The position numbers were made by a program, and so were the translations under genes. Positions 619 through 24,164 of a DNA stretch of 64,000 nucleotides are shown here, piece by piece (the stretch's first letter is position 1; each line of letters starts with the position of its first letter). Under the pieces are notes generated by a model. That model saw nothing but the letters and a program-made list of their open reading frames with translations, was not told the origin of the DNA and ran no database searches. This stretch comes from Emydura subglobosa (Eukaryota > Chordata > Testudines > Chelidae). Location of the stretch: NCBI GenBank assembly GCA_007922225.1, contig ML679956.1, positions 69,866,111-69,930,110 on the forward strand, given 5' to 3'.

Positions 619-741
619 CCTCATCCCTTCAAATCGTGACAATGCTCTTAATGGTCTCAAAGCTCGGAGGGTCCTAAGGGATTTAATAGGACCCATTTCG
701 GAGTATCCAAGTGAGTTAGCTATGAGGCTTATTAAAGAGAC
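619..741 (-). CDS. SCN5A: Sodium channel domain III S3-S4 exon, downstream copy (exon 22a)
   Basis: This 123-nt phase-0 exon encodes 41 residues, starting [17 protein letters not shown] and ending in the S4 run [17 protein letters not shown] plus GMR. It supplies the end of S3, the S3-S4 loop and the S4 voltage sensor, with a Lys and four Arg at every third position. The acceptor (cattcag before 741) has a T-rich tract and the donor is AGG|gtaaga. It joins in frame to the upstream exon ending in LIVD at 35285, giving the family-typical LIVDVSL. The sequence is the canonical Nav form, so this is probably the default adult-type exon. A second, divergent copy lies 798 nt upstream in the transcript (1540-1662). 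Confidence 0.93.
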
Positions 742-1539
742 CTGAATGGAGACATAAAGCAAAAGTCCAAACTATTAGCACAATCCTATCATTTTACTTC
801 TCTTCTGCCTTTCCTTTCTGAAAAGAAAAAACCTGTTAGTGGAATGATGATGAAATAACCTAAATGGAGGACATAGAATTAGACCAATACAGAAAGAAAA
901 GAAGGTTTAACATCCAAATATATACACAATTCTTTTCATGATTCCTTCAGAACATAAAGTCTTTGTTTCCAATTTAATGTAAACTCTTAGAAATAGAGTA
1001 TTAAAGTTGTCTATTTCCCTCTAGTGAAGCACGCAGAGTGCTTAGTAATGTCCATAGGAGCTATGTGGTTAGAAAAAGGGGAGATTACAATCACAAAAAT
1101 ATTATTCTGTGGCACTAACATTTTATTTATTTTATACCTGACAGAGGTGTGTGTGCATCTATCATTGTTAAAAGTATTATTAAATCATGTAAATGCTATC
1201 ATTTGGTGCTCTCCAATGAATCATTTTAAGATTCTTCAATATCCAATGATTTATTAAAATGGTAGAAGATTTTAAGATTTCATTGTAAAACGAATGGTCA
1301 ATCCTAAATACTGATTAAAAAAAATCTCTTCCTAAATTGCCACTGGATCTGAGTCTATTATAGACTCTTTAAAAGAATTATGTATATAATTTGTTTGGCT
1401 CTTTCCATTTTTCACTGTTATCTGGATCCCCACACAGCACCTAAAAGAGAAGACTCCATGTTATTTTCCTGTAAGGAAAGTTAGAAGGTGCTCAGCATTA
1501 AAGTGCACATACTTCATAGACACTAAAAGGTACCCTTAC
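742..1539 (-). other. 798-nt intron between the two alternative S3-S4 exons
   Basis: This segment separates exon 22b (upstream in the transcript) from exon 22a. It starts on the minus strand with gtaagggta and ends with a pyrimidine-rich stretch before cattcag. No repeat is recognised. At 798 nt it is too long for mutual exclusion of the two exons to come from simple steric crowding of the splice sites. Confidence 0.7.
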
Positions 1540-1662
1540 CCTTATGCTCTCAAATCTGGATAGGGCTCGGAGGGGCCTCAATGCCCTGAGTGTTCTGAGA
1601 TATTTCATAGCGCCCAGCTGGTCATAATCAAGAGTTGTTGCTATCAGGCAAACAACTGAAAT
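1540..1662 (-). CDS. SCN5A: Sodium channel domain III S3-S4 exon, divergent upstream copy (exon 22b)
   Basis: A second 123-nt, phase-0, stop-free exon encodes 41 residues: [19 protein letters not shown], then KY, then [17 protein letters not shown] and SIR. Acceptor ctgcacag| and donor AGG|gtaagg both fit consensus. It aligns without gaps to exon 22a with 26 of 41 residues identical; 17 of these form one unbroken S4 run. The S3/S3-S4 loop half differs in most positions, with an S3 Cys and two Asp in the loop. It would join the LIVD end of the 35285-35458 exon in frame. I read it as an alternative, probably mutually exclusive exon. Its position parallels SCN8A exon 18N, but 18N carries an in-frame stop and this copy has none. 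Use in transcripts is not shown by the sequence. Confidence 0.85.
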
Positions 1663-1984
1663 CTGTGCAGATTGAATGGAGTTTGAGATTACAGGTCAGA
1701 TGAACAAACATGGAGTAAATGGATTTTACATGCCACAGTTGCTATTCATAGCCTGAATTCTTACTGACCAGGGAGTGAAAAAGGAAGCTATTCCCATACA
1801 CTGCAACCATCTTTCTGACTTTCAAGAGTAAATTACATGGATTAATTTCTGTTCCATCTTTATAATCTTTTCTATTCCCAGGAATTGAGATTTTACAGGC
1901 AACCTGTATTAATATGTGCATTGTTGACTTTGACAAAACCTTCATTCCTGTGTATCCACAGGATGTATGCCCCCTCTTACTCTA
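1663..1984 (-). other. Intron, nothing recognised
   Basis: Sequence upstream of exon 22b in the transcript. It supplies the acceptor region of that exon; the pyrimidine tract is weaker than that of exon 22a. No repeat or coding signal seen. Confidence 0.5.
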
Positions 1985-2215
1985 ATATCTGAGTGCTTTA
2001 CAGCCTTGAATGTATTTATCTTCACAACACCCTTTAATGTAGGGAAGTGCTATTATCCCCATTTTACAGATGGGAACAGAAACACAGAGATTGACTTGTC
2101 CATCATCATGCAGGAGATCTGTGATGGAGCAGGAAATTGAACCCAGGTCAGCCAAGTCCCAGGCTAGAATCCTGACTCCCGGACCATCCCTACTCCTATA
2201 AGCTTAGTCATTTAA
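1985..2215 (-). repeat. MIR-like tRNA-derived SINE
   Basis: Read on the minus strand it has the usual order of a MIR/CORE-type SINE: a tRNA-like region with a gggttcaatttcct B-box-like stretch, a region around ggacaagtcaatctctgtg, then catctgtaaaatggggata and a short tail. It is diverged and lacks obvious target duplications. Confidence 0.65.
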
Positions 2216-3235
2216 CTACAGAAAGCTGGGCAGACAGTATTCATCTCTAAATATCATTGTACAATGCACTCAGTATATGAATTTTTTAAAAATAAATGAA
2301 TGGTTCTATTGCACATTTTAGACACAGCCAGCGGTAGGGTAGCAGCTCCTGGAGTCATTGTGCCAGGACAGACACATAGGCCAGATTCTTAGCTGGTGTC
2401 AATCAGCATAACTGTGCTGGAAGAAACACTGGTGTTTGGCACAGAGCACTAGCCACTGATATCCTCTTTAATAAGGTGCATCATGGAAACTCACCTCACT
2501 GCCTTACCTCCTGTGGCTGGAGTGGAAGGAGGAATGATGATAAATGCTTCTGTACATGGTGATAAGCGTGGTATAAAAATTTACTAGGTAGATAGAGCAG
2601 ACATAGGCTAGGTTTAAGTAGATAATTTGTATAGGTTCCATATATTAATTAGTGATATTTTTCTCTCCCTTTCTAATGTTTGCACGCTTGGGATGCAGAA
2701 TTAACTATGGCAGCCTGGCTTTTACAGGTGAAGGGCCTATGAAAAATAGTATCACTAAAGCATTATAAACTCTCTATAACATTTCTGAAATGCATTAGAA
2801 TTAGTGTGGTATAAAGCTGCTACTGACACTCATTTGGGATGCTCTGTATAGCTTGAGTTTCATGACTTCTGTGATTAAAATTTGGACCTTGATATTACAT
2901 TAACACAGAGTCAAATTCTGCTGTCCTTATTTGCTCCACCCACTGACTTTAATGGGAATGCTGCCTAAGAGAGGAGAAAAGATTGTTGGATTCACATGTG
3001 CTGCATGCATATATAAAATAGCTTTTCAGTTGACTCTCAACATTATAATATAATTGGCATTACTGAGGTATTCCCTTTATACTAAGGTCTCCACTACGAT
3101 ACACAACCCTCTGATGTATACTTCCCTAATAGGAATTCCTGAAGGTGCCTGGCCATATTTCTATTCCCACTCTCTCTGGAGAATATAATACTGACAATGC
3201 GTCCACCTCAACCTTCATGCAAGAGGTTTTTTTTG
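2216..3235 (-). other. Intron with only small ancient repeat traces
   Basis: Mostly unrecognised AT-rich sequence. Short stretches near 2375-2440 and 2905-2970 (for example ccactgactttaatggg) resemble a diverged palindromic repeat common in turtle and crocodilian DNA; a similar trace lies near 51630-51735. No coding signal. Confidence 0.3.
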
Positions 3236-3239
3236 CCCA

Positions 3240-3900
3240 GATAGCTGGGAGAAAAGAGTTGTTGCTCTTTTAAGATCTTCTTACAATGGGTGGGGAAAAA
3301 AGGAGAAGTTTACAGGGATGGACAGGAAGGGCAGGAAGCAGTTGGGGCCAGGTCAGGAGAAAGTCACTGCACTGTCTTTCCTGTTGACTGAAAGAGTGGG
3401 AAGGTATTTATACCCCATGCAGCCCTTCAGGGGCCCTCTTTACCAGGGGCAGGGTGGCAGCCCTCCTCCTCCCAATGAACATGGTGAAAGGACCGAGTTC
3501 CCCCTTGAGCTGCTGTGGACATTACACTAGTTGTTCTTTTCCTTAGGGGGCTGGGAAAGAATTTTTCCCTCACCGACAGATTGGCCTAAGCGGGTGTTTT
3601 TTTCTGCCTTTCCCACAGCTGGTCTGAGACCCCATGGGGTGGAGTAGGAGGGTTAGGTTATAATGTCTCAACCTAATACATAAAACCTGTGCCAGATATC
3701 CAGTGCAGGCACTCAGAATGGGAGGAATATGGGTATCGGATAACATGGATTGGAAAAGGATTTGAAGGTAATCATCCCTTAAGGGAGCTGAGTAAGGGGA
3801 GCTTTGGGCCCCTCCATCTTGGGGGAAGGGGAGGCGACCCCCTCCTTTTCCTAGATCTCTTTAAGGGCGTTGAGGAAGGGGATTTGTGACTCCTGTGTCT
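3240..3900. repeat. Probable unclassified interspersed repeat, G-rich
   Basis: This block is richer in G and C than its surroundings and has several short purine-rich and ggggaagg-type stretches. Its base composition and sharp change from the flanks suggest an inserted repeat, but I see no termini, tail or protein motif that would name it. Confidence 0.3.
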
Positions 3901-5059
3901 GGTAAAGCACGAACCCGACCTCCTTCCTGTCCTGTACAATTTGTTGCTGGGTACTCACAGATATTTTAAGTGAATGAAGTTGCAGCCTAATTAAACCACA
4001 TCTGGTTCCTCCTTTCTTTTTTCTGGAATAGTCGGACAACGGCACTAGTCCTGCAGAGTCCTTGAGTTCCCTGTCTACCAAAACCCACAGAGATATGAGC
4101 ATTGCTATGAATAGTATGAGAGATGATATGAGTAACAGAAGTCAAAATACCAACACACTTATGAAAAGCTCAGTTTTTTGATTTTTTTAAAATGTATTTT
4201 TACAACAAAACGATTAAAATGCAATGCAACCAAGATCATTTCTCTTGTTATCTTTACCCAGAATGATTTAAAGGCAAATCTTTTAATACTCTTCTTCCCT
4301 CATTCCCAGATTTATGGGCCATAGGCCCATCTCCACTAAAGGTAAAAGGTACATTGTTCAAATCCTGTAAGACCAGGTTTCAGCTTAGAATGGGTTACCA
4401 GTTTCTCTAGAGTGCCACAAATGTCACCCTGAAATACATCACAGGTGCTGCTGTCCTCCTGACACAGATTTACACAGTATTAGATATCTATTCAGAGGAT
4501 TAGCTGTGAAGCTTTGTGATATTTGGCAATGATTTACAAGGTTGGAGTCAGTCCGCAGTTTGAGACAACATGTCTAAATACTCTACTGTTGATTTCGAAG
4601 GTATTTGATTCCTCCCTGTCAAATTTTATTAATAGGAAAATCACTACAGCAGAGAGTTGGCTGTTTGGACTTGATTAAATGTGACCCCAAAAAGCTATTT
4701 AAAAAAAATCAAACAGCTTTCAAAACCAGTACTGACTGCCCCACATAAGCATGGCAAAAAGGAAAGTCAGCATTTTTCTAATGTGTGTTTTTTTCTGTTG
4801 CAAACTTGTGAATTCCAAAGCCATGGTAACTTACTGCCTTGTACTCTATATATTATATCAGATATACCCCCTAAATGATGCAGGGAAAGCATCGGTGGAG
4901 ACAAAGTAAGCCCCAATTTTAACAACAGTGCACATTTTACTAACCATTTTAAGCTTTGTATTTGATTGCCCATATGGTTTTCTTGGTAAAAATACATTTG
5001 AAAGCCATGCAATATTGTAACATTATAGAATTTAGCTTACTCCTATGGAGCATCTGCAG
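3901..5059 (-). other. Intron, nothing recognised
   Basis: AT-rich sequence without a convincing repeat, exon or RNA gene. Short open frames here have no recognisable domain. Confidence 0.45.
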
Positions 5060-5254
5060 CAGGGGTTCTCAAACCTCCTCAGGGGGTCACGAGGTTATTA
5101 TGGCGGATTATGGAGGGGGTCACAAGCTGCCAGCCCTTATTCATGCCAGTAAGGGAGGCATGACATGGGGAGGGTCATCATGTTTTTGGAAGGGGTCATC
5201 ACAGCCCAAAATATTTTCAAAGGGGTTCCAGAAAAAAAAGTTTGAGAACCCCTG
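5060..5254. mobile_element. Short hAT-type nonautonomous DNA transposon
   Basis: A 195-bp element bounded by a perfect 15-bp terminal inverted repeat, CAGGGGTTCTCAAAC and GTTTGAGAACCCCTG. The CAGnGGTTCTCAA terminus is characteristic of hAT/Charlie-group elements. Flanking 8-bp target duplications are not clear (atctgcag versus atcgactg). No transposase sequence is present, so it would have moved in trans. Confidence 0.75.
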
Positions 5255-5309
5255 ATCGACTGTCTCCATAAAGACCACCAGTAACACCAGTTACACTACA
5301 AATGAAACT

Positions 5310-6575
5310 ACTGGATCTAACTTTCTGGGGCAAAGTTAATTGGAACTGCACTGATACAAATACCAAACAAATTTATAAGGATTGTTGTGAATTTGATAAG
5401 TGAACTACAGCACATGATGTTAGAACTCTGCATGCTGTTTGACTTAAAGTGTGAATGCAGGAATTGAAAGACAAGGAAAAACTTGAATGAAGTTAAAACT
5501 TTTCGGAAAATTAGCTATGATGGAAAGTCGCAAGTCCAAACGTAGATATAGAGTTATTTAATAAATTTAAGGGTTAACAAAAGAGACAGTAGGTATTAAA
5601 GATGAAGTGTACCAGAATATAAATGAAAAGTAGAGTTGGTTTTGTCAAATGCACACAGATGTGTCCAAAAAAAAAAGGAAAAAAACAGGAAGAATAGGGA
5701 TAGCATATTGTATACCAAAATTGGGCATTAGTACAGCTAAAACAATATCTGACTATGTAGCTGTCATGACAGCTGAACTCGTAGAAATAATGCTAGCATT
5801 AAATTGGATCTGAGATGTACAACAGTTATTTTTTCAAATTCAGTCTCAGGCCTTATGGCAATAAAAAAGGGTGTCTCAGAATGCAGAAATGATTTAATCA
5901 ATAAAGTTATATTTCAATAACAAAGTTAGTATAGATGGGGATACATATAGCATTAGCTTGGATCCCTGAGCATATTGGGATCACAGAGAATAATATGATG
6001 GACAAAGCAGCTAAAAACACTTTAAGAAACGGAACGATTGACATAGAAATACCCTCAAGTAAACAGGAATTCAAAAGCCTAGTATAGAAAAATGTAAAAG
6101 AGGACTGGCAAAAAAATTTAGATTAAAGATAAAAGAGGAAGAAGATTTTTTTGAATTTTGCCCTAGAGTTGAGAATTATAACATACTTCAGGGCCTGGAT
6201 AGGGCTAATGAAGTGCTTTTGTTTAGAGTAGTAATTGGTCTTTGTGGCTTAAACAAAATCTTTTTTGAATAAAAAGAGACAAAGATGAACTATGTGCATT
6301 CTGTAAAGCAGAAGAAACAATTGACCACCTTTCAGGGGTATGTCATGGGTTTGATAAAGAAGGGGAAAAGCTTTTTGAGGAATTCAAATGTCTTAAGGTT
6401 AAAAAAAAATTACATTATGTGATTTAATAAAAACATCAGGGGAAATGGAGTATTAAAAAAGGTGCTGTGGCATTACTTAAAAGACACAGGGCAGAGTGAG
6501 AGGATATAAACCGCTAAATATTGAGGGATTGTAATGGGTGGTGGCTATAGACTATTCAGTTGTATGCTTCATCAT
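5310..6575 (+). mobile_element. I-clade (Nimb-like) non-LTR retrotransposon, 3' part, copy A
   Basis: Broken frames on the plus strand encode an RNase H domain (pieces TISDYVAVMTAELVEIMLAL near 5740 and WIPEHIGITENN near 5960) and a C-terminal region with a Cys-His motif, CAFCKAEETIDHL, near 6300. This RT plus RNase H plus zinc-motif order is typical of I-clade LINEs. It aligns along its length with copy B at 14260-15490, including the gagaggatata stretch near the 3' end. It is truncated at the 5' side and contains stops and frameshifts. The A-rich 3' end runs straight into ORF1-like sequence of another copy at 6576. Confidence 0.7.
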
Positions 6576-7675
6576 AAAAAAGAGAAAAAGAAAAAAAGGA
6601 GAAAGAGCGCTAGTTGGATTGCTGGCTGGGCTTGGGGTTGTCGTTTGCTGGGCTTCAAATTGTCTGTGTATGTTGGGAGAGGTTGAGAGCTGGGGCTTGG
6701 CATTCAAAGCCTGGCTGGCTGGACAAACAGAGCTGGAAATACAGACTGAGAGGGAAAGACTGAAAGCTATGATGGAAATTGAAGGGAAAAAAGAAAGAGG
6801 TGAAGAATTGCTTCATGTTAGGATGAAGAAAAAAAGAATAGAAATATCTGTATCTAAAGAAGAGGGAGCAGACAGGGATGGAAAAAAAGAGTAAGGAAAA
6901 GTATCAACATCTCATATTTACCAAATCACCAGCTGAATATGTAAAGATAGGAGATGTTAATCTCTTAAAAACAGTGGAATGGATTAGGCGAATAATTGGA
7001 GATATATTGAGAGCTAAAAGAATGCAGGGTCGACCTACTGTTTCAGGGTAAATAAAACTAATTCACCAGCTACCTAAATCTATGACATAAGCAAGAGGGC
7101 AAATGTATGGAGTTTCAGTAGGCACAACTGAGGATGAAATTAAAAGGGGTATAAGTGAGGACCAATTGTTTTTGGTTTAGAAACTGATTAGCAGGAGAGA
7201 GGAAGAACAGAAACCATCCACAGCTGTCCAAAGTACACTACCACCCAATAGGGTTAATATAGGATAACAACTCTTCTGAATTAAACCATATATCCCAGCT
7301 GCTTTGAGATGTTATAAATGTCAAAAGTTTGGGCATGAGGTTGCTGTCTGTAAGGGGAAAATGAGATGTGGTAAATGTGGAGAACACTTGTACGAGAACA
7401 GATTGGAAGGAACAGAACTAAAATACAACAATTGTGGGGATAAGAAGAGTGCAGCATCCAAACGGGGGGGGGGGGGTGGCAGCAGAACAAGGTAGATAGA
7501 TACAGAAAACTAAATCTATCCATAGAATATCCTATGCAGAAGCTACACAGACATATTCACAGTGGAATGCGGAGGAGGAAAATGCCAGTGAGGGAAAAGT
7601 GCTACTGATACAGCAATATGCAATTCAGGGCAGGAAAGATAATGTAAGGGGAATAGATGAAGATGTAGGTGGGGC
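6576..7675 (+). mobile_element. I-clade (Nimb-like) LINE, 5' UTR and ORF1 remnant, copy C
   Basis: After the A-rich end of copy A the plus strand shows a charged stretch (6720-6895) and then ORF1-like pieces, including KSPAEYVKIGDVNLL near 6918 and ISYAEATQTYS near 7528. The nucleocapsid zinc-knuckle region lies between them. Stops break the frame at about 7050 and 7180. The ORF2 that should follow is missing; the element stops near 7675. With copy A in front it forms a head-to-tail pair. Confidence 0.6.
7304..7495 (+). pseudogene. ORF1 nucleocapsid-like zinc-knuckle fragment
   Basis: The fragment RCYKCQKFGHEVAVC gives a complete CX2CX4HX4C knuckle. A second (RCGKCGEH) and a third (KYNNCGDKKSA) follow at the spacing typical of I/Jockey-group ORF1 proteins, but each has lost one or more metal ligands. 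A G-rich run at 7466-7474 follows and the frame ends soon after. In an intact LINE this protein binds the element RNA in the ribonucleoprotein particle. This copy is a fragment. Confidence 0.65.
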
Positions 7676-8209
7676 ACCATTTCAGAGTTTGAGGGCGGGG
7701 GTCGGGCAGGGCCGCCATTTCAGATGCGGGGGCACATTTGTGATTCCAGGGGCTCCTTAGACACTTGAAAACTAGTTTTTTTGCAGATAATAATTTACAA
7801 ATTAGCTGTACCTAATTCCTATATAAAGAAAAAAAATTAAATAAATCTTTGACCCGCTCACCTCTAATCCTAACATGTCCTGACATGCTGTGTCAAGTCA
7901 CTTACGGGACACTGCGTAGGGTTAAATTTTTTGAATGTATATTCTTACTTTGTTACTAGCTCTGGAATACAACAATTGAAACAACTGTAGACAAATCTAG
8001 ATCACTTGCTATGGTATTCATTTTTTGCAGTTCACCAAGCTTGGACTCTTATCATTTACCTTTTGGAAATATCCTACTAAGCTAGGGCGAGGCCCTGTGA
8101 ATTTAAACTGCCCCTGCCTGGCACTCTAGGGATGTTATCATACCATAAATACTAGATTAGAAACTGACTTTAAACTGGAATGAAACTGACACCTTCAAGT
8201 CACTTTGAT
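7676..8209. other. Unclassified sequence
   Basis: A short G-rich stretch (7690-7735) is followed by AT-rich sequence. No family recognised and no coding signal. Confidence 0.35.
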
Positions 8210-8490
8210 AGTGTTGCCTACCCCAAACGTTCAAAAATCATGAGTCAGGCTCACCAAAAATCATAAGATTGGCTTAAAAATCATGAGATTATGTAAAAAA
8301 TTTTTTGAACGTTTGGGGGTCACATTTTGAAGCTTTCTCCACAGCCACAAGGGCTAGAAATCTACTTTTTCTTTAAGACTGAAGTCTGAAATCATTACAT
8401 ATCCACTTGGCTCCAGGAGCTGGGGCTTTAAGGAAAACAATGATTATCATGAGACTCATGACAAAATCATGAGAGCTGGCATCACTGCTT
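8210..8490. repeat. Possible MITE with ATCATGAG-rich inverted termini
   Basis: The left end starts agtgttgcctacc and the right end reads gagctggcatcact, an imperfect terminal inverted repeat. The motif atcatgag recurs near both ends and inside, and aaacgttcaaaaa pairs with ttttttgaacgttt at 8229/8298. No transposase. The family is not named. Confidence 0.45.
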
Positions 8491-9184
8491 TCACTTCTGT
8501 TTAAAGGCTAGTTACTTTCCAGAAGGCTCTTAAACTCAACACTACAGTGATTGAGTTGCAATTCTCACAGGAGAATAGTTAAAATCAAACATCAAGAAAA
8601 TTCCACATTTTATAGTTGAGAAAAAAAATTGAGTCTCTGAAGGTATATCAGGGCCACTGCAGGTAGAAAAAGAAAATAAACAGGCACAGGAGCTCTGGGC
8701 AGCTCTTCCTCTTGAAAAAAAGTTGGAGGGTCAAATCTTCCAGGCTTTAATAAGGTATAACTTCCACTGCCATCAGTGCCTCCACTCATAGATATTAACT
8801 TGTGCTGAATAACTATACACTTCATACTTAAATATCTGAGCCTTCTTATCCAGGGCTACACATTTTATATGTGTTAGTTCAGGGACTACATTTTCTGGCA
8901 TATTCTGAACAGTGCTAAGCACACAGATGGTACCCAGTGAATAATGCAACTCATGACAATAATCGTCGACTTTATGGACTCACTGGATGCAATTTCTGTT
9001 CTTTGTTCTGAAATTGGCCTGAATACAGCTGAAACCCCCCATTCCTGTTTCATAGATTCATCTAAGACTTCCAGATCCTTAATTTAATCTCCAGCCCTTT
9101 CTTATCTTAATCACCCTACCTCTGTTCGTAAACAAAATACTGACTCCCTGCCCCAGGGACACAAGCTGGAAGCAGCAAACTCTC
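8491..9184. other. Intron, nothing recognised
   Basis: No convincing repeat, exon or RNA gene. Confidence 0.4.
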
Positions 9185-10074
9185 AGGCCTTGTCTACACT
9201 TAAAAATTAAGTCAACCTAATATAAGTTGACTGATAGCCACTGCTGTAATTACAGTGGTGGCTGATGTCCGCATTGCTCTCTTTGGGTCGGTGGAGTGCA
9301 TCCTCACCAAGAGCACTTCCATCGACCTAAAGGGCAGTGTGGGGAGCGGAGAGCTCCCTTCTGGGAGCCCACAAGCTCCCAGGCTCTCTGTGGGCTGTCC
9401 CCCAACTCTCTGATTCCTGCCGGGAGCCTGGAGAAGCCACCAGGTACTTCTCTCCTCCCTTTCCCCACTGGGAGCCGCCATGCGGGGCTTCTCTGTTCCC
9501 ACTCTCCTCCAGAATGGGCAGCCATGTCAATTTCATGGCTCAGCCATGTAGTTAAGAAGGCTGCCCCAGCAGGGAGCAGGTGGAGAAGCACCCGGATTTC
9601 TGGCCCTGACTCTCAGCCAAGGGTGGAGACCAGCCACCCGGGCTGGGCTTCTCTCCCCACTCCCAACTGGGAGCTGGATGAGAAGTCCTGGCAGCTGATA
9701 TTTGCTCCTGGCTTGGAGCAAGAGCTTCTCCACCTGCTCCTCACTGGGGCAGTCTTGTCAATTACATGGCTGAGTTGTGAAATTAATATGGCTGCCTGTT
9801 CCATCCCGGGAACCAGCCCCTGAGCTTGAGCTTTCTTGTCAATTTCACAGCTCCAGCAGAAGGGTGAAATTGAGAAGAATGACAACCCTGGAGCCGATGT
9901 AAGGGGATGCAGTGTCTACATTGACACTGCATTGCTCTAACTATGCTGACAAAAGCCCTACACCTCTCATCAAGGTGGTTTTATTTTGTTGAAAAAATAG
10001 GGAAGTTTTGTCAGTGGGGGGTGGGGGGTGGGTTTGACTATGGTTGACAAAACTCTCTAGCGTAGACCAGGCCT
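9185..10074. mobile_element. TIR DNA transposon of the GTCTACACT-terminus group, nonautonomous
   Basis: The ends AGGCCTTGTCTACACT and (reverse complement) AGGCCTGGTCTACGCT form an imperfect terminal inverted repeat. The interior is GC-rich and contains variants of a short segment, tgtcaatttcatggct near 9524, tgtcaattacatggct near 9756 and tgtcaatttcacagct near 9837. Several overlapping frames are open on both strands, as expected from its composition, but none resembles a transposase. Shorter relatives lie at 38512-38773 and 40387-40668. Confidence 0.6.
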
Positions 10075-10345
10075 TCTTATACACTCAGTGTGTGCTGCAG
10101 TTAAGAGCTCTGTCTGGGACTAGGACATGAGCCTCGATCAGAACTCCTGTATGAAATGTAAGGGAGGGCTATGCAGCCCCTCTTTGCCCCACCAAGGGAC
10201 ACCCCTTTTTGTAGGCAAGGAAAAATTTATAGCATTTATGCTATAAGTGATTAATTGCATTTTACAGACAGAGAAAAGACTGAATGAATTTTAAAAAATA
10301 CCCAAAGTGGCAGAAAAGTATTTTCATATAGGCTCTCTCTTAATA

Positions 10346-12334
10346 AATCATATTCATACCATTCATACCACAGAAGTGTGGGACTGGAAGGGACCTCACT
10401 AGGTTATCTAGTCCAGTCCCCTGCACTCAAGGAAGGACTAAATAAGAACTAGATCATTTCTGACAGGTGTTTGTCTAACCTGCTCTAAAAAGCTCCAATG
10501 ACAGAGATTCCACAACCTCCCTAAGTAATTAGTTCCAGTGCTGAACTACCCGGACAGAAAGCTTTTCCTAATGTCCAACCTAAACCCCCCTTGCTACAGT
10601 TTAAGCCCATTGCTTCTTGTCCTATCCTCAAAGATTAAGAAGAACAAATTTTCACCCGCCTCCTCCTTCTAACAACCTCTTATGTACATGAAAACTGTTA
10701 TGTTCCCTCTCAGTCTTCTCGTCTCCAAACTAAACAAACCCAATTTTTTCAATCTTCCCTCATAGGTCATGTTTTCTAGACCTTTAATCATTTTGTTGCT
10801 ATTCTCTGGACTTTCTCCAGTTTGTCCACATCTTTCCCGAAATGTGGAGCCCAGACCTGGACACAATATTCCAGTTGAGGCCTAATCAGCGCAGAGTAGA
10901 GCAGAAGAATAACTTCTTGTGTTTTGCTTACAACACTCTTGCTAATACATTCCAGAATGATGTTTGTTCTTTTTGCAACAGTGTTACACTGTTGACTTAT
11001 ATTTACCTTGTGATCCCCAGATCCCTTTCTTCAATACTCTTTCCTAGTGAGTCATTTCCCATTTTATGTGTGTGCAACTAATCGTTCTTCTATAAGTTGA
11101 GTACTTTGCATTTGTCCTTATTGAATTTCATCCTATTTACTTCAGACCATTTCTCCAGTTATTCCAGATCATTTTGAATTTTAATCCTATCCTCCAAAGC
11201 ACTTGCAACCCCTCCAAGCTTGGTATCATCCACAAATTTTATAACTGTACTCTCTATGCCATTATCTAAATCATTAATGAAGATATTGAACAGAAACAGA
11301 CCTAGAACTGATCCATGCAGGACCCCACACAATATGCCTTTCCAGATTGACTGTGAATCACTGATAGCTACACTCTGGGAATGGTTTTCCAATCAGTTAT
11401 GCACCCACCTAATAATAGCTCCATCTAGGCCATATTTCCCTAGCTTGTTTATGAGAAGGTCATGTAAGACAAAATCAAAAGCTTTACTAAAGTCAAGATA
11501 TACCACATCTACTACTTTTCCCCATCAACAAGGCTTGTTACCCTGTCAAAGAAAGCTCTTAGGTTGGTTTGACATGATTTTTTCTTGACAAATCCATGTT
11601 GACTGCTACATATCATCTTATTATCTTCTAGGTGTTGCAAATTGATTGCTTGGTTATTTGCTCCATTAATTCTATGGGTACTGAAGTTATATTGACTGGT
11701 CTGTAATTCCCAGGTTATCCTTATTCCACTTTTTTGTAGGTTGGCACTATATTTGCCCTTTTCCTGTCCTGTGGAATCTCTCCCGTCTTCCGTGACTTTT
11801 TTAAGATAATCACTAATGGCTCAGATATCTCTTCAGTCAGCTCCTTGAGTATTCTAGGATGTATTTCATCAGACCCCACTGACTTGAAGACATCTTACTT
11901 GTCTAAATAACTTTTAATGTGTTCTTTCCCTATTTTAAACTCAGATTCTACCTCATTTTTCACTGACATTCATGATGTTAGACGTCCAATCGCTTCTAAC
12001 CTTTTTGGTGAAAACAAACAAAAAAGTCATTTAGCACATCCGCCATTTCTCCATTTTCTGTTATTCTCTTCCCCCCCCCATTGAGTAATGGGCCTACCCG
12101 TCCTTGGCCCTCCTCTTGCTTCTAATCTATTTGTAGAATGTTTTCTTGTTACTCTTTATGTCTGTAGCTAGCTTAATCTAATTTTGTGCCTTGACATTTC
12201 TAATTTTGTCCCTACATACTTGTTTTGTTTTTTCCTCCAACTTCTGAAATAAAAAATGGTCTCCAATGCATTCCAAGAACTTGTTGGATAATCTATGCCC
12301 TGCTGTATTATTTTTCCAACAGATATCTGGATAG
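10346..12334 (-). mobile_element. CR1 LINE, 3' region through part of reverse transcriptase (older, host copy)
   Basis: On the minus strand the segment encodes CR1 ORF2 pieces, including GVLHGSVLGLFLFNIFINDL and KFVDDTKLGG (RT catalytic FVDD) near 11220-11330, and MIKGLENMTYEGRLKKLGLF near 10740. Its 3' end lies near 10350 with the usual gggactggaagggacctc-type sequence. Stops and frameshifts are frequent. The same element resumes at 13161-13325, after a younger CR1 inserted on the opposite strand. Confidence 0.85.
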
Positions 12335-12342
12335 ATGAAATC

Positions 12343-13152
12343 AAACAAACTTTTGGGATTGGGCCAAAAGAAACCTGATGAGGTTCAACAAGGACAAGTG
12401 CACAAAAAGTCCTGCACTTGGATGGAAGAATCCCATACACAGCTACAGACTGGGGACCGATGAGCTAGGCAGCAGTTCTGCAGAAAAGGACCTGGGGTTA
12501 CAGTGGATAAGAAGCTGGATATGAGTCAGCAGTGTGCCCTGGTTGTCAAGAAGGCTAATAGCATACTGGGCTGCATTAGTAGGAGTATTGCCAGCAGATT
12601 GCGGGAAGTGATTATTCCCCTCTATTCGGCATTGGTGAGTCCGCATTTGGAGTATTGTGTCCAGTTTTGGGCCCCCCACTACAAAAAGGACGTAGACAAG
12701 TTGGAGAGAGTCCAGCAGAGGGCAACAAAAATGATTAGGGGGCTGGAGCACAAGACTTATGAGGAGAGGCTGGGGGAACTAGACTTGTTTAGTCTGCAGA
12801 AGAGAAGAATGAGGGGAGATTTGATAGCAGCCTTTAACTACCTGAAAGGGGGTTCCAGGGAGGATGGAGCTAGGCTGTTCTCAGTGGTGGCAGATGACAG
12901 AACAAGAAGCAACGGTCTCAAATTGCAGTGGGGGAGATCTAGGTTGGACATTAGGAAAAAGTTTTTCACTTGGAGGGTGGTGAAGCACTGGAATGGGTTA
13001 CCTAGAGAGGTGGTGGAATCTCCATCTTTAGAGGTTTTTAAGCTGCGACTTGACAAAACCCTCGCTGGGATTATTTAGCTGAGGTTAGTCCTGCTTTGAG
13101 CAGGGGGTTGGACTAGATGACCTCCTGAGGTCCCTTCCAACTCTATGATTCT
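12343..13152 (+). mobile_element. CR1 LINE, 5'-truncated young copy nested in another CR1
   Basis: This plus-strand CR1 3' end inserted into the minus-strand CR1. An 8-bp direct repeat atgaaatc flanks it (12335-12342 and 13153-13160). It ends in the CR1 octamer-type tail (ctatgattctatga). It is 5'-truncated, which is normal for LINE insertions made by target-primed reverse transcription. Confidence 0.85.
12503..13078 (+). pseudogene. CR1 ORF2 C-terminal fragment, 191 codons open
   Basis: A continuous 191-codon frame encodes the C-terminal region after the RT core of CR1 ORF2, with [30 protein letters not shown] and [20 protein letters not shown] as landmarks. An equally long frame from another CR1 lies at 57960-58535 on the minus strand. 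The preserved frame suggests a fairly recent insertion. The endonuclease and most of the RT are absent, so the copy is dead on arrival. Confidence 0.85.
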
Positions 13153-13160
13153 ATGAAATC

Positions 13161-13325
13161 CTCCATCACCACCAAGTCTTGTGTTTTGGATGATTGTGTT
13201 AGTTGTTTAAAAGAAGCCTCATCCACACCTTCTTACTGGTTAGGTGGTCTGTAGTAGACCCCTACCATGACATCACCCTTGTTTTTTACCCCTTTTACCA
13301 GTATCCAGAGATTTGCAACCAGTTT
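13161..13325 (-). mobile_element. CR1 LINE, remaining 5' part of the interrupted host copy
   Basis: The sequence from ctccatcaccaccaag onward continues the minus-strand CR1 that was cut at 12334-12342. It ends near 13325 where the I-clade LINE begins. Confidence 0.65.
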
Positions 13326-13329
13326 GTCA

Positions 13330-15520
13330 TAAACTCTGTACAAAATGGTTTCAGAAAAGGAAGGTGCACAGTTGATCACATTAGAAGATTAGAAACAGAA
13401 ATACCAAAAAAAAAAAAAAAAAAAAAAGAGGAACAGAGAGTTTATGATAGCTATCTTTTTGGACATAGAAAAAACGTATGACATGCTATGGAGGGAAGGC
13501 TCGCTGTATAAACTAGCAGCAACTGGAACAAGAGGAAGAATGTTCTGTTGGATAGGAGATTTCTTAAGTGATAGAATCATACAAGTCAGGGTGTGGGCAG
13601 CTTTGTTGAATATTTATAAATTTACTAACAATACTCCACAGGCAAGTGTTATCAGCCCATCCCTGTTTAACATTAACTCCTGGAGAGTATATGGGCAGGA
13701 ATAGGCATTACTCTATTTTAGATGACTGCTATATGGTCCAAACATAGAAAACTTAAGATAGCTGTGGAGAAAACTGATGAGGCGCTCAGGGGGATTTCAA
13801 AATGGGGAGATACATGAGGATTTAAGTTCTCACTCGCTAAAACAAAGGGAACAATCTTCACAAAAAGGAAGACTGGGGGAAAATGGAACCCATATCTCTA
13901 TACAGAAAAAATACAGGTAGTTCAAAATTTTACATTGTTAGGAGTTATGCTCCATAACAAACTAACCTGGATGATGTCAATACTAAATGTAAAAATTAGG
14001 ATGAATCTGCTTAAAAGCATTGATGGGAACAACTGGGGTGTAGATAAGAACAGTCTGTTGATGCTGTAAAGGGCACTAATGAGACCAGTTATACATGATG
14101 GATGCCAAGCATTTAATTCAGCATCTAAACCAACACTCAAAAATATTAGAGCTGATCCAAACCCACACTCTGTGAATCACATGTGGTGTGAGTATTACGA
14201 CTCCCTTGTGTGTGCTGCAGGTAGCAACTGGAGAAATGCCTATAAATGTAAAGATGAAATTGTTAGATTTAACCTTTTGGGCTACGGTTAATGGAAATAG
14301 AGCAGATAAGATAAATGAATATACAATGACTGTTGGGAATTAAATAGACAAGAAGTAACTGGGCGCCACAAACTCCAATATGCTAAACAGGGTCAAAAGG
14401 TGGGTAAAAGACTTGGGTGAAAAGGATAGTTTGGAAGAAATTAAAATCTTTAGTCATGGGAAATCAAACTAAAGCTGGATGGTTGTCTCTCCACTATGGA
14501 TTTGGAATTATACAATAAAACAAAGGAAAGAGTGGGACCATTAAATACTGTATGATGAGTAAAGATTTACAAATTTATACATGACAAATGGCATCACTGT
14601 TGTCAAATCTATACTGGCAGCTCTAGAGATGACAACACAAGAGAGTGGAAGGCCTTTTATATGCCTGAATTTGGAATTAAGAGATCTATGAGATTATCCA
14701 ATTCTGTTACCATTATAATGGCCAAATTGATGGCATTCTGTTAGCACCGACCTGGATAAGTAAGGCACAGCCAACTATCCTACTGGGACTCTTTACTGGG
14801 TATAATGGTGATTAGAAAGGGAGTCTGGGAAAGCAGGAATGACTTAATCAATGAAATATTGTTCTCAACTATGGAAATAGTACAACTACGTAATAGTAAT
14901 AGCATAGATTCTGGCACGACAAGATACTGGGCAATGAAATGGTAGATAAAGTAGAAAAAAATGTCTTAAAAATGAGAAGATTGATATAAAGAGCCCTCTG
15001 AGTAAAGAAGACTTCAAAAATTTGGTTGACAGAAAAATTACGAAGGAATGGCAAGAACTATGGACCAAAGAGAAAAAAGGATGAAGGTTCTATGAAATAT
15101 GTCCTAAGCTTGAGGATAAAGGCATATTTATTATGATGAAAGAAGTGAAGTAACTATATTTAGAGTGCTAACAGGTCACTGTAACCTGAATGGTAATTTA
15201 TATTTACTGAACAAGCACAAGACATATGCAAATCCAAGAAACAGCTGAGCATCTGCTGTGGCAATGCAGGGATAATTACACAGAAAGAAAGATGGTTTAT
15301 GAAGAATTCAGACATCGCAAGGTGAAAGGATTTAGGCTGAAAGGATTAGTGAGAGTACCGGGAAAATGGGTGGCATTAAAAAAAAGCATTACTTCACTTT
15401 TTTAAGGATACAGGACTGGTGAGAGGATATAGATTTTTGCCTATGAGAAAACTGAACTAGATGGTGGTTATAGCCTCACATGACGAAGCTGCTGTACCAT
15501 AAAATGACATGAAAAGAAAG
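13330..15520 (+). mobile_element. I-clade (Nimb-like) non-LTR retrotransposon, copy B (RT, RNase H, C-terminus)
   Basis: Plus-strand pieces give an RT domain: QNGFRKGRCTVDHIRRLETE near 13340, IFLDIEKTYDMLWREG near 13450, and TPQASVISPSLFNI near 13635. The Y/F-x-DD box is decayed to ILDD near 13715. A thumb-like piece EKIQVVQNFTLLGVML lies near 13905, and SPLSKEDFKNLVDRKITKEW then ETAEHLLWQCRD mark the C-terminal region near 14995-15270. The copy is interrupted by a run of about 22 A at 13408 and many stops. It starts within the RT, so it is 5'-truncated. Confidence 0.75.
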
Positions 15521-16025
15521 AAAATGAGTTGCAGTGTAGAAACTGACAGTCACTCTCTAGGTTTAGAAAGGGAAAAGGAGGAAACCCAGGGAGACAGAAG
15601 CCTTGGGATACTGGCCCTAAGGGAATGGTTTACCCAGAAGGATGGAGAAGAGAGCCCGGGGGAGCAAAGTAGGAAGCAGCCCAGGGAAAGAGCAGTGAGG
15701 ATAGAGATTGTGAAGGCCTTGGCTGCTGGTTGTAGGGTCCCCGGACTGGAACCTGGAGTAGTGGACAGGCCCAGGTTCCCCTACCAGTCACTGAACAATA
15801 GCACAGGATTGTGGGAGATGCCAACTGGACAGCTGGTCTGGAGGGACTTTGATACTCTGGAAGGTGAGATCAAGCCAGAAGACTAAGTCACAAAGAAAAA
15901 AAGCACCTTGAGTCAGATAGAGAGAGAACACAGGGTGAGCGAATGACAGAAGGGGGCACCAGACCAGACGAGAGCTGATTTCTCAGACACAGCCATGAGG
16001 AAGTGCCCCCGCAGTGAATGTACCC
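15521..16025. repeat. Unclassified interspersed sequence
   Basis: GC content is higher than in the flanks, and the right part ends with gtgcccccgcagtgaatg and taccctgtgacagg. A 125-codon frame (15509-15886) lies here without any domain I recognise. It may be an LTR or a composite repeat, but I cannot show termini. Confidence 0.3.
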
Positions 16026-16392
16026 TGTGACAGGCATATAAAACATTAGCAAAAGAGATGATATAAATGAATCCTTAATTTTACTGCTAACTGACAACTA
16101 GGCCTCAGTTAGCAGACTCAACTATTTCATGAGTCCATCATAGTTGGTGGCACTACATTCCAATTAGCCAAGGAGGTACTGTCACTTTTAATTCACCCTA
16201 TCATTCTGGACTTACATTTACCCCCATTTTTAAAAATTCACTTTGGCAAATCATTAGCATCTTCACTTTAAAGTTTTGGGACGCTTACATTCATCCCAAG
16301 CTCCTATCACGGCCATGTTTGTGCATGTCAGAGAGAAAAATTGCAGAGCAGGTTTATTACAGAAAAGACTTTTTAAGTCAGTAGTCTAGAAA
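16026..16392. other. Intron, nothing recognised
   Basis: AT-rich intron sequence without a recognisable repeat or exon. Confidence 0.4.
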
Positions 16393-16394
16393 GA

Positions 16395-16640
16395 GAAAGG
16401 ATAATCCAATGGTTAGGGCACTAAAATAGGATTTGGGCAACCTGGGTTCAGGTCTCTGCTCTATTATAGACTTCCTATATGACCGTGGGCAGGTTCCTTA
16501 GTCTCTTTGTGCCTCAATTCCCCACTGTAAAATAAGGATAAAAGCAATTCTCTACCTCAGCTGGGGGTTGTGAGTATAAATACATGAAAGATTGTTAGGT
16601 GCTCAGACATTATAATGATGCAGGCCATAACAGAATTTAG
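16395..16640 (+). repeat. tRNA-derived SINE (MIR/CORE-like)
   Basis: An A-box-like tccaatggttagggcac, a B-box-like gggttcaggtctc, then tttgtgcctcaattcccc and ctgtaaaataaggata, followed by a tail with gctcagacattataatgatg. This order is typical of MIR-like SINEs of amniotes. It is not a functional tRNA gene. Confidence 0.75.
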
Positions 16641-16779
16641 AATAGATGATCTATCTTACCTGACAATGCAGGATTTCTTCCTACCACATGTTTTCTGGTG
16701 TTTTGTTTAGTCTTATTTTTAATTTGCAAAGCCTTGTAGCTTCTAGTATTTCTTTTGGGAGGATTTTACAGAACCCAAT

Positions 16780-17215
16780 AGATCTCATACAGTTAGGAAG
16801 TTTTTCTAAATATTCAGTCTAAATTTTCCTTTCCTTAGTTTAATTCAGCTATTCCTTGTTATATTCCATTGGACACTCCTAAATAATTCCTCTTCTTCCT
16901 TGGCATTTACTGCCTTCATTACCTGCAAACTGTTAGGCTATTTTCATGTTCCCATTAATTTGCTACATAACCGATTTATATACACACACACACATACATG
17001 CCTTTTCAGATTTTACTCAGACTTTACTCAGGCAATATTTGGCTCTTATGCTGGACGATGTCGGTGTTTTGCTTGAGTAAAGACTATGTATAAACCGAGA
17101 AGGGACATCAGCATTTGGCCCCTGGTATTTAGTTCTTTTCCCATCATGACTCAGTCTTTCTAGGTCCTGGATCATTTTTCTTGCTCCACCCTGAACTCTT
17201 TTCAATTAAACAAAT
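16780..17215 (-). repeat. Degenerate CR1 3' region
   Basis: Fragments such as aggtcctggatcatttttctt and the ccctgaactcttttcaatt stretch correspond on the minus strand to the CR1 ORF2 C-terminal area (KRVQGGARKMIQDLERLSHD). A short CA repeat lies at 16982-16996. Strongly decayed. Confidence 0.5.
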
Positions 17216-19435
17216 AGTGTCAGTTAGTTCAATACGGAAGGGGAAAACTTTTACCCAGGATGCTGATACGTCACGTGACCCTAAGAAAGGCTCATCACAC
17301 TACATATGTGAAAACACTGAGTAATAAAAATGGGTGTGGGGAAGGAAGGAGGAGCTGCACAAGACAACTGATATCAACTAAATGCTTGCCTGCCACAAAC
17401 TGCACAATATCCAACATAAATGGCACTGCAAATGAAGGATGCCATGGTAATACTAACTTTTCCATGAAGTCAACACACATTGGTAATTCAAACTACAAAA
17501 GGCTGCAGCAGCTTATAGGGAACACAGAAGCTGTCTGCAGCAGTTATTACTATTTACATTACAGAACTGTCCAGCAAGATCAGGATCAAGGCCCTACAGT
17601 GACAGGCACTGTACAAGGATATGTTCTCTGCCATAAAGAGCTTACAGTCTTGTGTGCTTCATGGCAGACACCATGGGCACAAGCTGCTGAGTTAAGTACT
17701 TCAGTAGGCAAAAACTCCTGCTACAGGTCTCTCCATGTTGCATCTAGCTAGTGCAGAGAGCCACACCAATTTGTGTTTGTAAGTTTGTTGCTAGGTCGTT
17801 CCTGTAGCCTTGGATCCACAAAGGGGGGGGGAGGCAGGGGGGGAGGAGAGAGAGATAGAGGAAGAGAAGGAGGAATAATGGGAGCTCTGAGAAGGAGGGA
17901 GAGGAATAAACCTTACCTCTACAGTTTTGGCTGTGTGCAATGGGGTATTTGGGCATTCCCACTATGGTTATGACATGTGGTGTGCACACTGGGTTTAATT
18001 TATCCGTCTATCTATAGCTCATCCAATGTGTAATACTACTTATCATAAACTTTCACAACTGCTGACTACTTACATGCTGACTTCTATGAAATGGCAATAT
18101 GTGTCTCAAACTGGACTGTCTGAGAGTGCCTTCCCCAGCCTTTCCCTGCCCTCCCACCCAGCCATCCACGAATCAATAAATTGTTTTGGCAACCCTACTG
18201 GTTCTTCATTAGCACGGGAAGCAGGAGTCTCCCAAACACTACTGACTATAGAGTAGGTCCTGTATTTATTGACAAACACTGTTATGGAATTTACTGGAAT
18301 TTGCTATTTATAGGCCTGTTTCTGCAAACCTTACTGGTAATGGTAGACTAACTCACCCATAAGGTCAATGGAATAAGGTTGCAGAATCAGTCCCTATGGA
18401 ATGCATAGTGTTTAATCAAATAGGACATGTTTTTTTTTGCTCCCAGCCTCAGTTCATTTCAGTACAGACCCAAGCCAGAAGTCAATCCAAATGCTATTAA
18501 AGACTTCCTATCCTAACATTTGTTCCATTGATGCTGCTTCTGAAACAGGCAGCATGAAGTGTCCCTCTTAGAGACCGAGACAAATTTGCCAACAGACCTC
18601 AAGGGCTTTAGACTAAAATAGGCATGATGTTGTTTGCCCCACCTTGGCTTCTTTCATGTTGCTGTGGAAAGGCTGCCATTGTTGAACTTTCTCTAATCCT
18701 AGTATTTAGGGAAGTTTGTCCCACCTGCTCCTCACTCTCATTGGCCATGGACAGTTTTATGTACACAGATTTCCCCTGCCAAGCAGGATGATCTAACTCA
18801 AACTGAGAAGAAGCTGGTTTCAGATGTCAGCTCTAACCCTCCTGGAATCAGGTAAAGACACAGACAAACTAATCCCATCACTGCTCAATCAACAGTTATT
18901 TACTAATACTTTCATTTTCTCTTCTTTCAAGGTTGCGTTCAAGAAAAACTAGCTTCAAATCCTTGTGTTTGGATTAACCGCATAAAATGTCCACTCCGGA
19001 CAGCCCCAGGGATTGTCAGGCCTGTGCCAAATGTTTTAAAGACAGACTTCTTGTCATCTATAAGGCTTAGCAGAACTAGCAACATGTATCCAGACTGTCC
19101 CTTTATAGAATATATGCTCCTTTTTCCAGGGCAGCAGCAAGAATGATTGATGAATTAAACATAGCTAAAATATTGGTAATGAACTCTGAAAAGAAACTAG
19201 CCTGATTAATAAATGTTTAAAGTTATTGCTAAACTGCTTCTGGTGTGATAAACATCTGACTTTGTAGAGCAGCTTTAGAGTCTGGTAATAATTGATATTT
19301 ATCTGGAAAATATTCATTGTCTAGGAGTTTATTAATTAAATCTTTCAGTGATTGTCATGAATTTAAAATTCAACACTTAAAAGGGATGTTGCCGTATTCT
19401 TTAGATGACAAATTCTGTTTCTTATTTATTTCTGT
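17216..19435. other. Intron with minor repeats
   Basis: Mostly unrecognised. At 17570-17650 there is an ancient repeat tail (caggcactgtacaagg and aaagagcttacagtct). At 17821-17880 there is a G-rich, A-rich low-complexity tract. An open 163-codon frame at 17260-17751 has no recognisable domain. Confidence 0.4.
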
Positions 19436-19439
19436 CCCA

Positions 19440-19560
19440 ATAGTGCCTAGTGAAAATTAGGGCCTCACTGTGTTTGGCACTGTACATCTATCGAGTCAAA
19501 GGCAGACCCTGCCCCAAAAAGTTTACTCATTATAGACAAGACAGATGGAGGGAGGGGAAA
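19440..19560 (+). repeat. Ancient SINE/LINE tail
   Basis: The stretch ggcactgtacatctat and ccctgccccaaaaagttta matches the same kind of tail as at 17570-17650. It is an old, diverged repeat; family not named. Confidence 0.45.
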
Positions 19561-19794
19561 AGGAATCTGCGACATACACAATGACTTACCTTTAAATTTG
19601 TATATTATAAAAAGAAGAAATCCAAATAATTTTTAATGGATTTTTTAAATGAATTAATACCTAAAGTAAAAACAAATCAAAACAAAAAACCAAAACATAT
19701 AGCAGTAGTTTATGTAGGTGCTGTCTGTATTCCACAACTGCACAAATATGCAGCCTTTATTTATACACAGCATTATTTACAACTTTAGCATAGG

Positions 19795-19995
19795 CAGTGG
19801 GTGGCTAGGGCTAGAGGGGTTGCGTGCCACTTGTTATGTTACTTAGCCTCTCCCTGTGCTTCAGTTTTCCCATCTGAAAAATTGAGATGATTCATTACCT
19901 CATAGGTATGTAATGAGATGTAATTTGTTAAAGTTTATTTTAAAAAAAAGTAGTCTGAGATCATTGATCAGTGCTATACAAATGCCAAATATTAG
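19795..19995 (+). repeat. MIR-like SINE, diverged
   Basis: Contains ctctccctgtgcttcagttt, cccatctgaaaaattgagat and cctcataggtatgtaatgag, then a core ending in agtgctatacaaatgcc. The order fits a MIR-type SINE on the plus strand. Confidence 0.65.
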
Positions 19996-20865
19996 CATCA
20001 TATTTTCAAACTCAGAAAGAGGCTACTTCTCATTGAGGTTTAGCACTGTGTGAGGTTAGAAAGTTGATGGTTCGCTTTTTAAAACCCAGCCTTCCTTTCT
20101 GTACCTATGGCTTGTGTCCATAAATAACTGCATACACAATTTTGTTCTCACAGTTATTCTAGATGTCTCATTGCCTCAGTCATGTAGTTAGAATCTAAAT
20201 GAGAATAATTGCAGGTGCAAAACAGCACCTGTTACGAACCGAGCCTGTAAAACTTGAGGTACAAAAAGAAGACTGGATTAAAACCAGGCACCTATAGTCA
20301 TTATTTCTAAGTTATCCTTAAGACCTTTTTTTTTTTATGTGGAAAAGGTATACTTTTCTAGTCACAAATAAAAAATGTCTAAGTGTATTTAGCTTAAAGA
20401 GTCTTTAAAAATTTGGTGTATGTGTTGAGGCCTTGGAAAGAAAAGCTTTAGAGGTAGATTTTCAAATGCATAAATGGGACTCAGGTGCCTAACTCCCATC
20501 TATGCGATGAAAACCTTGTTCTTAGTCCTAGTCTTGCTCCAGATGGTTTAAATAGAAGCAGGACAGATCCCCAAAAAGAAAATCATTTCAGAAAATTATG
20601 AATGATGGAGAACTAGGAAGCAGAATGGAAATATATATATGCAAGCTTAATTTCTATACTATCAGTAAGTTGAAATCTTAAAGACTTTTAGCACAACTGG
20701 CATTTCTTCCATCCTTAACGAGTGTTAATTCCATAATACTTTGTCTTTTAAAAAAGGCATCAACCTACCTTCTGATTCTGGAATTGCAATATATACCACT
20801 TAGACATCTAGCTACTTGATTGCAAGATGTAAATCAGATAATTAGATATCTAAGTGCTTTGAATT
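19996..20865. other. Intron, nothing firm
   Basis: A short stretch at 20460-20520 (gactcaggtgcctaactccc) resembles the TIR element that hosts the DIRS copy at 43792-51415. Otherwise nothing recognised. Confidence 0.35.
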
Positions 20866-20875
20866 ATGGGCACAA

Positions 20876-21126
20876 AGGAGGAAGAGTTGTCTTGTAGTTA
20901 TAGAGCATTAGATGGGAACTCAGGTTCTGGATTCGATTTCCATTGCTCTTACAGTTTCCTTGAGCAAGTTGCGATCTCTCTGTGCCTCACCCTTTTGTCA
21001 GTAAAATATTCAGATTGTAAGCTTTGTGGGGCAGTTACTTTAAAAAAAAATTATATAACACCTAGCATAACAGGGTCCTGGTCCATGACTGGAGATCCTA
21101 GACACAACTGCAACATAAATAAATAA
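20876..21126 (+). repeat. tRNA-derived SINE with (TAAA)n end
   Basis: tRNA-like part with tctggattcgatttccat as B box, then tctgtgcctcacccttttgt, ttgtaagctttgtggggcag, and the tail region gggtcctggtccatgactgg ending in ataaataaataa. This layout is typical of a common turtle/crocodilian SINE. Confidence 0.75.
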
Positions 21127-22409: not shown

Positions 22410-22512
22410 CTACAAGATGCTATGATGAAGTGGGTTGCAGCCCACGAAAGCTTATACCTGCAGAAATTTGTTAGTCTTTAAGGTGCTACAGGACCCCCGT
22501 TGTTTTTTTTAA
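22410..22512 (+). repeat. 3' tail of a retroelement with a hammerhead-like fold
   Basis: The segment atgatgaagtgggttgcagc followed by ccacgaaagcttata and ttgttagtctttaaggtgct is a conserved reptile repeat tail, possibly of a Penelope-like element. It contains GATGA, a hairpin gtggg-ttgcag-cccac (22430-22445) and GAAA (22446-22449), as in the CUGAUGA-stem II-GAAA core of hammerhead ribozymes. The core first base is A rather than C here, so this copy should be inactive even if the family is a ribozyme. Confidence 0.5.
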
Positions 22513-24160: not shown

Positions 24161-24164
24161 AACA

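Follow-up and report, generated by a model that had tools for sequence, protein, structure and literature searches.

SCN5A of the turtle Emydura subglobosa contains a putative ancient pair of alternative exons for the domain III voltage-sensor paddle

We analyzed a 64,000-nt stretch of the Emydura subglobosa genome (the window) and propose that the locus is SCN5A with an ancient alternative-exon pair for the VSD-III paddle, which predicts a second full-length Nav1.5; we put the probability of this reading at roughly four in five. The two exons, canonical exon A and alternative exon N, are listed with their neighbors in Table 1. The gene is carried by the minus strand, and the plus-strand translations of both exons contain stops. 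Both exons are 123 nt long, phase 0, stop-free and bounded by GT-AG sites; they agree at 26 of 41 residues and 76 of 123 nt, and 15 of 41 residues differ. CAG precedes both exons, and both close with AGG/GTAAG (slashes mark splice sites). The sequence-only reading of this DNA had described two stop-free, phase-0 versions of 123 nt with 26 of 41 residues identical and AGG/gtaag ends, which is exact on the minus strand; it had also fitted both versions to the flanking exon ending in LIVD, where the junction at 35285 is likewise exact and its phase 0 suits both. N and A are homologous and adjacent, have equal length and phase and occupy the same protein position, as do the members of known S3-S4 exon pairs.

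Table 1. Exons and introns around the proposed N/A pair (window positions unless another locus is given)
Feature	Position	Strand	Description
Exon A	619..741	-	canonical domain III S3b-S4 exon of SCN5A, 41 codons; best PDB match Nav1.5
Exon N	1540..1662	-	putative alternative domain III S3b-S4 exon, 41 open codons, CAG/...AGG/GTAAGG
Intron between N and A	742..1539	-	798 nt
Intron upstream of exon N	1663..35284	-	33,622 nt
Upstream exon, DIII S1-S3	35285..35458	-	ends ...FLIVD/GTAAGT, phase 0
DIII start exon	37736..37890	-	sequence ends ...ILLSSGTL
DII-DIII linker end exon	60699..60819	-	5' boundary inferred
Next downstream exon	L017:2031-1744, beyond window		begins VVVNALIGA

The assignment of the gene to SCN5A is supported by exon A, by the linker and domain III exons, by the clade of the matching models and by the gene cluster. 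The best PDB match of exon A is the Nav1.5 chain (6uz0, E 5.8e-22). The same chain is the best match of exon N by whole-sequence E-value (E 8.8e-14), with a narrow margin; in domain III, however, N scores 41.4 bits with Nav1.3 and 37.9 bits with Nav1.5, so we identify the gene from A, the linker and the neighbors, and not from N alone. The linker and domain III exons of the window match SCN5A-like turtle models, which sit in the SCN5A/10A clade, and also human Nav1.5. In the SCN5A-like model of Emydura macquarii (P0075), the N exon (41 residues) and the upstream exon are identical to those of the window, and the DII-DIII linker piece has 91% identity over 46 residues. Two further Nav exons are located on the same contig and minus strand, 0.33 and 0.51 Mb from the window, and from the human gene order we take these clustered neighbors to be SCN10A/SCN11A-like. 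The earlier designation of the gene as SCN5A-like is borne out by the PDB match of exon A, the SCN5A-like models and the same-strand cluster with two paralogues.

Besides the two exons of the window, the genome (1.93 Gb) has eight further matches: C29 carries four, C91 and C125 have a single match each, and the remaining two share the contig and strand of the window. We take these eight paralogues to be SCN1A/2A/3A/9A, SCN8A, SCN4A and SCN10A/SCN11A-like genes. Window A shares 86-113 of 123 nt with the paralogue A exons but only 76 of 123 nt with N, and the closer relation of A to all eight points to an old split or a fast change of N. A profile scan found no N-type exon upstream of A in the eight paralogues, where seven introns were bounded by a found upstream exon and 8.85 kb upstream of A was scanned in L015. 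Two z 5.0 matches in L009 were rejected; they are repeat-like with stops inside, and the window contains a similar string near 18,600. In the two clustered paralogues, the A exons (L014:1030-1152 and L016:981-1103, on C21) are identical to window A at 113 and 106 of 123 nt, with dS values of 0.14 and 0.35, and the introns upstream of these A exons are about 520-535 nt long. They are closer than expected for the old SCN10A/SCN11A splits, suggesting recent duplication or gene conversion.

Within the gene, a profile scan of the 34.5-kb intron detects N at z 15.4, with a profile that itself included N, and no further exon copy was found in this intron (best match not overlapping N, z 4.6). Together with the PDB match of N, this score rules out a chance likeness. 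The donor sites of both exons score well on a simple scale (86.9 and 86.1), and the acceptor of N is the weaker one, with a pyrimidine fraction of 0.6 over 20 positions compared with 0.8 for A. Elsewhere in the genome N has no match above 71%, so it is not a stray paralogue copy. An assembly error or a misplaced paralogue exon might be suspected in a genome that has A exons in eight paralogues, of which two belong to the same cluster, but both this low identity and the occurrence of the same exon in SCN5A-type models of many species speak against it; the latter refutes a paralogue mix-up, and the chance of such an error is negligible.

The divergence between N and A has the pattern of coding sequence under constraint. 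By itself, the open frame is weak evidence, since 19% of randomised exons remain open. The differences are distributed 15/4/28 over codon positions 1/2/3, and the protein of the 17-residue S4 core is identical in the two exons despite 17 of 51 nt differences (5/0/12). When 17 changes were placed at random, the S4-core peptide was kept in 0 of 200,000 trials, starting from either sequence. Silent sites between N and A are saturated (dS returned -1), so no dN/dS is given. N evolves faster, with a mean of 13.4 differences per pair compared with 5.4 for A, as judged from 406 pairs of 29 N+A proteins, some of which share one species. All 48 N exons printed are open and have an intact S4 basic series by a loose pattern; the N/A pair hence combines intact S4 charges with an open frame over long evolution, other species being represented by predicted proteins, which favor open exons. 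Its weaker acceptor and faster change would suit a pseudo-exon or decaying relic that is spliced seldom if at all. We consider this very unlikely, given the 48 of 48 open exons with intact S4, the third-position-biased divergence, the silent-only changes in the S4 core and the presence of N-only models in turtles, lizards, newts and lungfish, even though such models favor open exons.

The occurrence of N in other species was evaluated by a protein search scored on this region alone, which gave 5,585 matches; we examined the best 120 in a ranking by similarity to N. The protein collection is clustered at 90% identity; the counts are accordingly not frequencies, and an N isoform may hide within an A cluster. 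Among the best 120 of 5,585, exon N is present in 50 and A alone in 70; the N-bearing models comprise 18 with N without A and 32 with N followed by A (30 from exon parsing plus P0088 and P0100). The N-only models in this set come from turtles (Emydura, Carettochelys, Trachemys, Chrysemys, Chelydra, Pelodiscus), squamates (Hemicordylus, Sphaerodactylus, Anolis, Varanus, Tiliqua) and, beyond reptiles, the newts Lissotriton and Pleurodeles and the lungfish Protopterus. Intact N is found in models from turtles, crocodilians, squamates, amphibians, lungfish, sturgeon, teleosts and a ray. The sequence-only reading would have been refuted by a broken copy in close relatives, but in these predicted proteins N is intact from turtles through the ray; its suggestion that a second open domain III S3-S4 exon predicts a second full-length channel gains support from relatives' models in which N replaces A. 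The N/A pair is not special to this species and looks much older than had been supposed. Three fragments deserve mention: N is joined to A in the gecko fragment P0004 and directly to the downstream exon in the rattlesnake fragment P0051, and P0003 (55 aa) contains an N-like stretch followed by sequence resembling the window intron past the N donor. Window positions 1510-1539 in that intron and P0003 both translate FSVYEV, and the donor-side intron past N may be conserved for splicing control.

In the mechanism that we propose, the spliceosome would join the upstream exon (35285) to either N (1662) or A (741) and then to the VVVNALIGA exon, which is separated from A by an intron of 7,698 nt, and each splice product would be a full-length channel. 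N and A are probably used in a mutually exclusive manner. The models do not by themselves show exclusivity, because N and A stand in tandem in 32 of the 50 that bear N. Since both exons are 123 nt long, tandem inclusion or double skipping stays in frame. The intron of 798 nt between them seems too long for simple steric exclusion, and the frame is kept when both exons are joined, so that exclusivity would need active control. The same data could be explained if N were a cassette exon that transcripts normally contain along with A; the product would be a longer channel in which S3b-S4 is doubled, or such transcripts would brake expression. Among the best 120 of 5,585, the 32 tandem models do join N and A in frame, as 123 + 123 nt allows, and they include Alligator, Pelodiscus, Hemicordylus, Xenopus and teleosts. 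However, gene predictors tend to take in every in-frame exon, and Hemicordylus is represented by the N-only model P0087 and the A-only model P0158 besides the N+A models P0060-P0063. A doubled S3b-S4 should, moreover, disrupt the topology of the voltage sensor, and we consider inclusion of both exons unlikely. Public tandem models with a doubled S3b-S4 include P0055, P0056, P0058, P0073, P0088 and P0100; should they be artefacts, 41 residues are in error in many predicted Nav1.5 proteins.

Candidate splicing signals are present around the pair. Rbfox is reported to promote the use of SCN8A 18A through UGCAUG downstream of the 18A exon, according to the sections available of a recent review (PMC13011093). 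The 1,500 nt downstream of A contain two TGCATG (expected 0.4), at 540 and 685 nt, within a total of three GCATG (expected 1.5), and seven TCATY (expected 2.9). The N-A intron contains neither TGCATG nor GCATG, and five TCATY (expected 1.6). These expectations assume equal base frequencies, and the counts are leads, not evidence. A TGCATG is also located just downstream of the SCN8A A exon of this genome.

The pair can be compared with several known systems. SCN8A 18N/18A is found at the same protein position as N/A, and the alternative exon 18N lies upstream of the SCN8A A exon. In this genome, the candidate SCN8A 18N, recognised by its peptide, is also located upstream of its A exon, by about 300 nt (L010:8424-8494 on C91; AG/71 nt/GTAAGG). 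No likeness was detected between N, window A or SCN8A A and 400 nt with the candidate 18N; the scores were 16-22, with shuffle means of 19-20 and maxima of 30-33. As far as could be seen, the likeness of N to SCN8A 18N is positional. The accessible literature agrees with the sequence-only reading that there is a stop in SCN8A 18N (PMC3809569) and that its inclusion leads to a truncated channel, and Nav1.1 is reported to have an 18N as well (PMC4309913); turtle N, in contrast, is open and homologous to A over its whole length. SCN1A poison exon 20N is, like N, a conserved alternative exon near the domain III S4 exon, but it is 64 bp long, frameshifting and located downstream of the A exon (PMC7790302, in part). 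Inclusion of 18N and 20N is described there as high in fetal brain and inverse to the functional transcript. Could N be a poison or silencing exon of this type? Its location upstream of A, in the intron position of 18N, would agree with such a role, but N has no stop or frameshift (41 open codons in 123 nt) and keeps the S4 basic series, and the candidate SCN8A 18N of this genome, of 71 nt, has no detectable likeness to S4 exons. We judge a silencing role to be quite unlikely.

The insect sodium channels, which the sequence-only reading had correctly named as having alternative exons at domain III S3-S4, provide mutually exclusive open exons of the kind that we propose for N/A, namely K/L of para/DmNav and G1/G2 of cockroach. 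K and L differ at 16 of 41 residues (PMC4309913, in part), compared with 15 of 41 for turtle N and A. The insect pair, however, belongs to an arthropod gene in which effects of K/L on persistent current have been measured, whereas N/A is known from sequence alone. Among vertebrate Nav genes, SCN5A 6/6A and neuronal 5N/5A and 6N/6A are open S3-S4 pairs like N/A (PMC13011093, available sections); these are located in domain I and are retained in mammals, whereas the N/A pair is in domain III.

A protein tree of 59 sequences, from which the domain III S3-S4 exon region had been cut out, included 35 of the 50 N-bearing proteins. All 35 fall in the SCN5A/10A clade (local support 0.983), so that source names such as 'type 4' and 'type 1-like' are misleading for some of them; some inner nodes of the tree are weak, down to 0.13. 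The N-bearing taxa in this clade are the ray Narcine, sturgeon, teleosts, lungfish, frogs, newts, squamates, crocodilians and turtles. The A-only teleosts Brienomyrus, Cyprinus, Clarias, Electrophorus and Nematolebias are also placed there, and the Latimeria exon is ambiguous. In a tree of the 41-residue exon itself, one split (UFBoot 94) unites the 30 N exons, and the only other exon in it is from a lamprey. This suggests that the N/A pair probably predates jawed vertebrates, with a single origin as the simplest reading; 41 residues cannot prove an origin, and cartilaginous fish are represented by one ray. The lamprey domain III S3-S4 exon (ISIVSLMATALGYDQLSAIKS..., P0155 and P0171) shows the D1294/Q1295 signature of N, and P0155, the one placed in the exon tree, groups with the N exons. 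This may mean that the N-like form is ancestral or that the pair exists in lampreys too.

Among the matches listed, the mammalian SCN5A proteins (eight by name, and P0116, P0143 and P0174 by exon sequence) are A-only, as are four bird proteins named SCN5A, and N appears to be absent from mammals and birds in this set. Six bird fragments named SCN5A (P0037-P0039, P0043, P0044 and P0047) have an exon of 36 residues that differs from both N and the usual A, shortened by a truncated S3-S4 linker, e.g. ISLINLLGGTFGPMKSLRT... (...SLIN[LF]..., MKSLRT...). The exon upstream of it is of paralogue type in five of the six and of SCN5A type in P0038, which is probably a chimeric model.

The N exons carry a distinct residue signature, which we describe in the numbering of the 2,016-residue Nav1.5 chain (exon, residues 1281-1321) from 30 N and 37 A exons, with lamprey and Latimeria excluded from the A set. 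Residue 1294 is Asp in 25 and Glu in 2 of 30 N exons, and Ser or Ala in 37/37 A exons, while residue 1295 is Gln or His in 22/30 N exons and Glu or Asp in 37/37 A exons. Residue 1285 is Cys in 23/30 N and Ser or Thr in 37/37 A exons, and residue 1299 is Met in 26/30 N and Ile in 34/37 A exons. The three frog N exons of 41 residues all have Gly, and no acid, at 1294; the fourth frog model, P0086, has 42 residues.

These positions are of functional interest. In human Nav1.5, Glu1295 approaches Arg1739 of the domain IV loop, and the E1295R substitution causes depolarising shifts of 4 mV in activation and 7.6 mV in steady-state inactivation, with reduced fast and enhanced slow inactivation; E1295K is a reported Brugada-associated variant, and A1294G has also been studied (PMC8551724, available text). 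The 1739 position is basic (Lys) in the five turtle channels checked (P0056, P0067, P0075, P0076 and P0079). The IVP2-S6 loop was found by a simple pattern in 19/27 proteins, an earlier pattern having found it in 0/25. In these few cases, the base is kept in newt P0095, the ray, sturgeon and reptiles with the loop found; lungfish keep the acid at 1294 and not the base, and the frogs P0064 and P0073 (two of the four with N) have neither. N would supply S3b, the linker and S4 of VSD-III, with the S4 basic residues kept, S3b changed and the linker acid shifted from residue 1295 to 1294. Such a change would be expected to alter the coupling of VSD-III to activation and inactivation rather than to abolish the channel, and we predict that the full-length N form has shifted activation and inactivation midpoints. 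The direction of the shift is not confidently predicted, since Asp1294 may replace Glu1295 as the partner.

No report of an open domain III pair in SCN5A was found in the accessible parts of the open-licence PMC literature, a scope outside which most subscription papers fall, and a 2026 review of Nav splicing gives SCN5A variants without such a pair in the sections available (PMC13011093). The N exon is already present in public gene models, yet undescribed in the literature searched. Few human disease genes have been studied as much as SCN5A, and its reference view of splicing comes from mammals, seemingly without N. If N is used as proposed, it represents a natural full-length VSD-III variant that has been kept since before jawed vertebrates, at residues known to matter, and it would allow the role of VSD-III in Nav1.5 inactivation to be tested by the swap of one 41-residue exon.

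Finally, one may ask, in view of this distribution, why N was given up in mammals and perhaps in birds. A tentative reading, which we regard as possible rather than likely, is that the ancestral cardiac channel of jawed vertebrates existed in two full-length VSD-III versions, used in different tissues, stages or conditions, and that the two warm-blooded lineages, mammals and birds, each lost N independently. Both versions would then still be made in reptiles, amphibians, lungfish and many ray-finned fish, and mammalian and avian Nav1.5 would be without a gating mode that was normal for the vertebrate heart.
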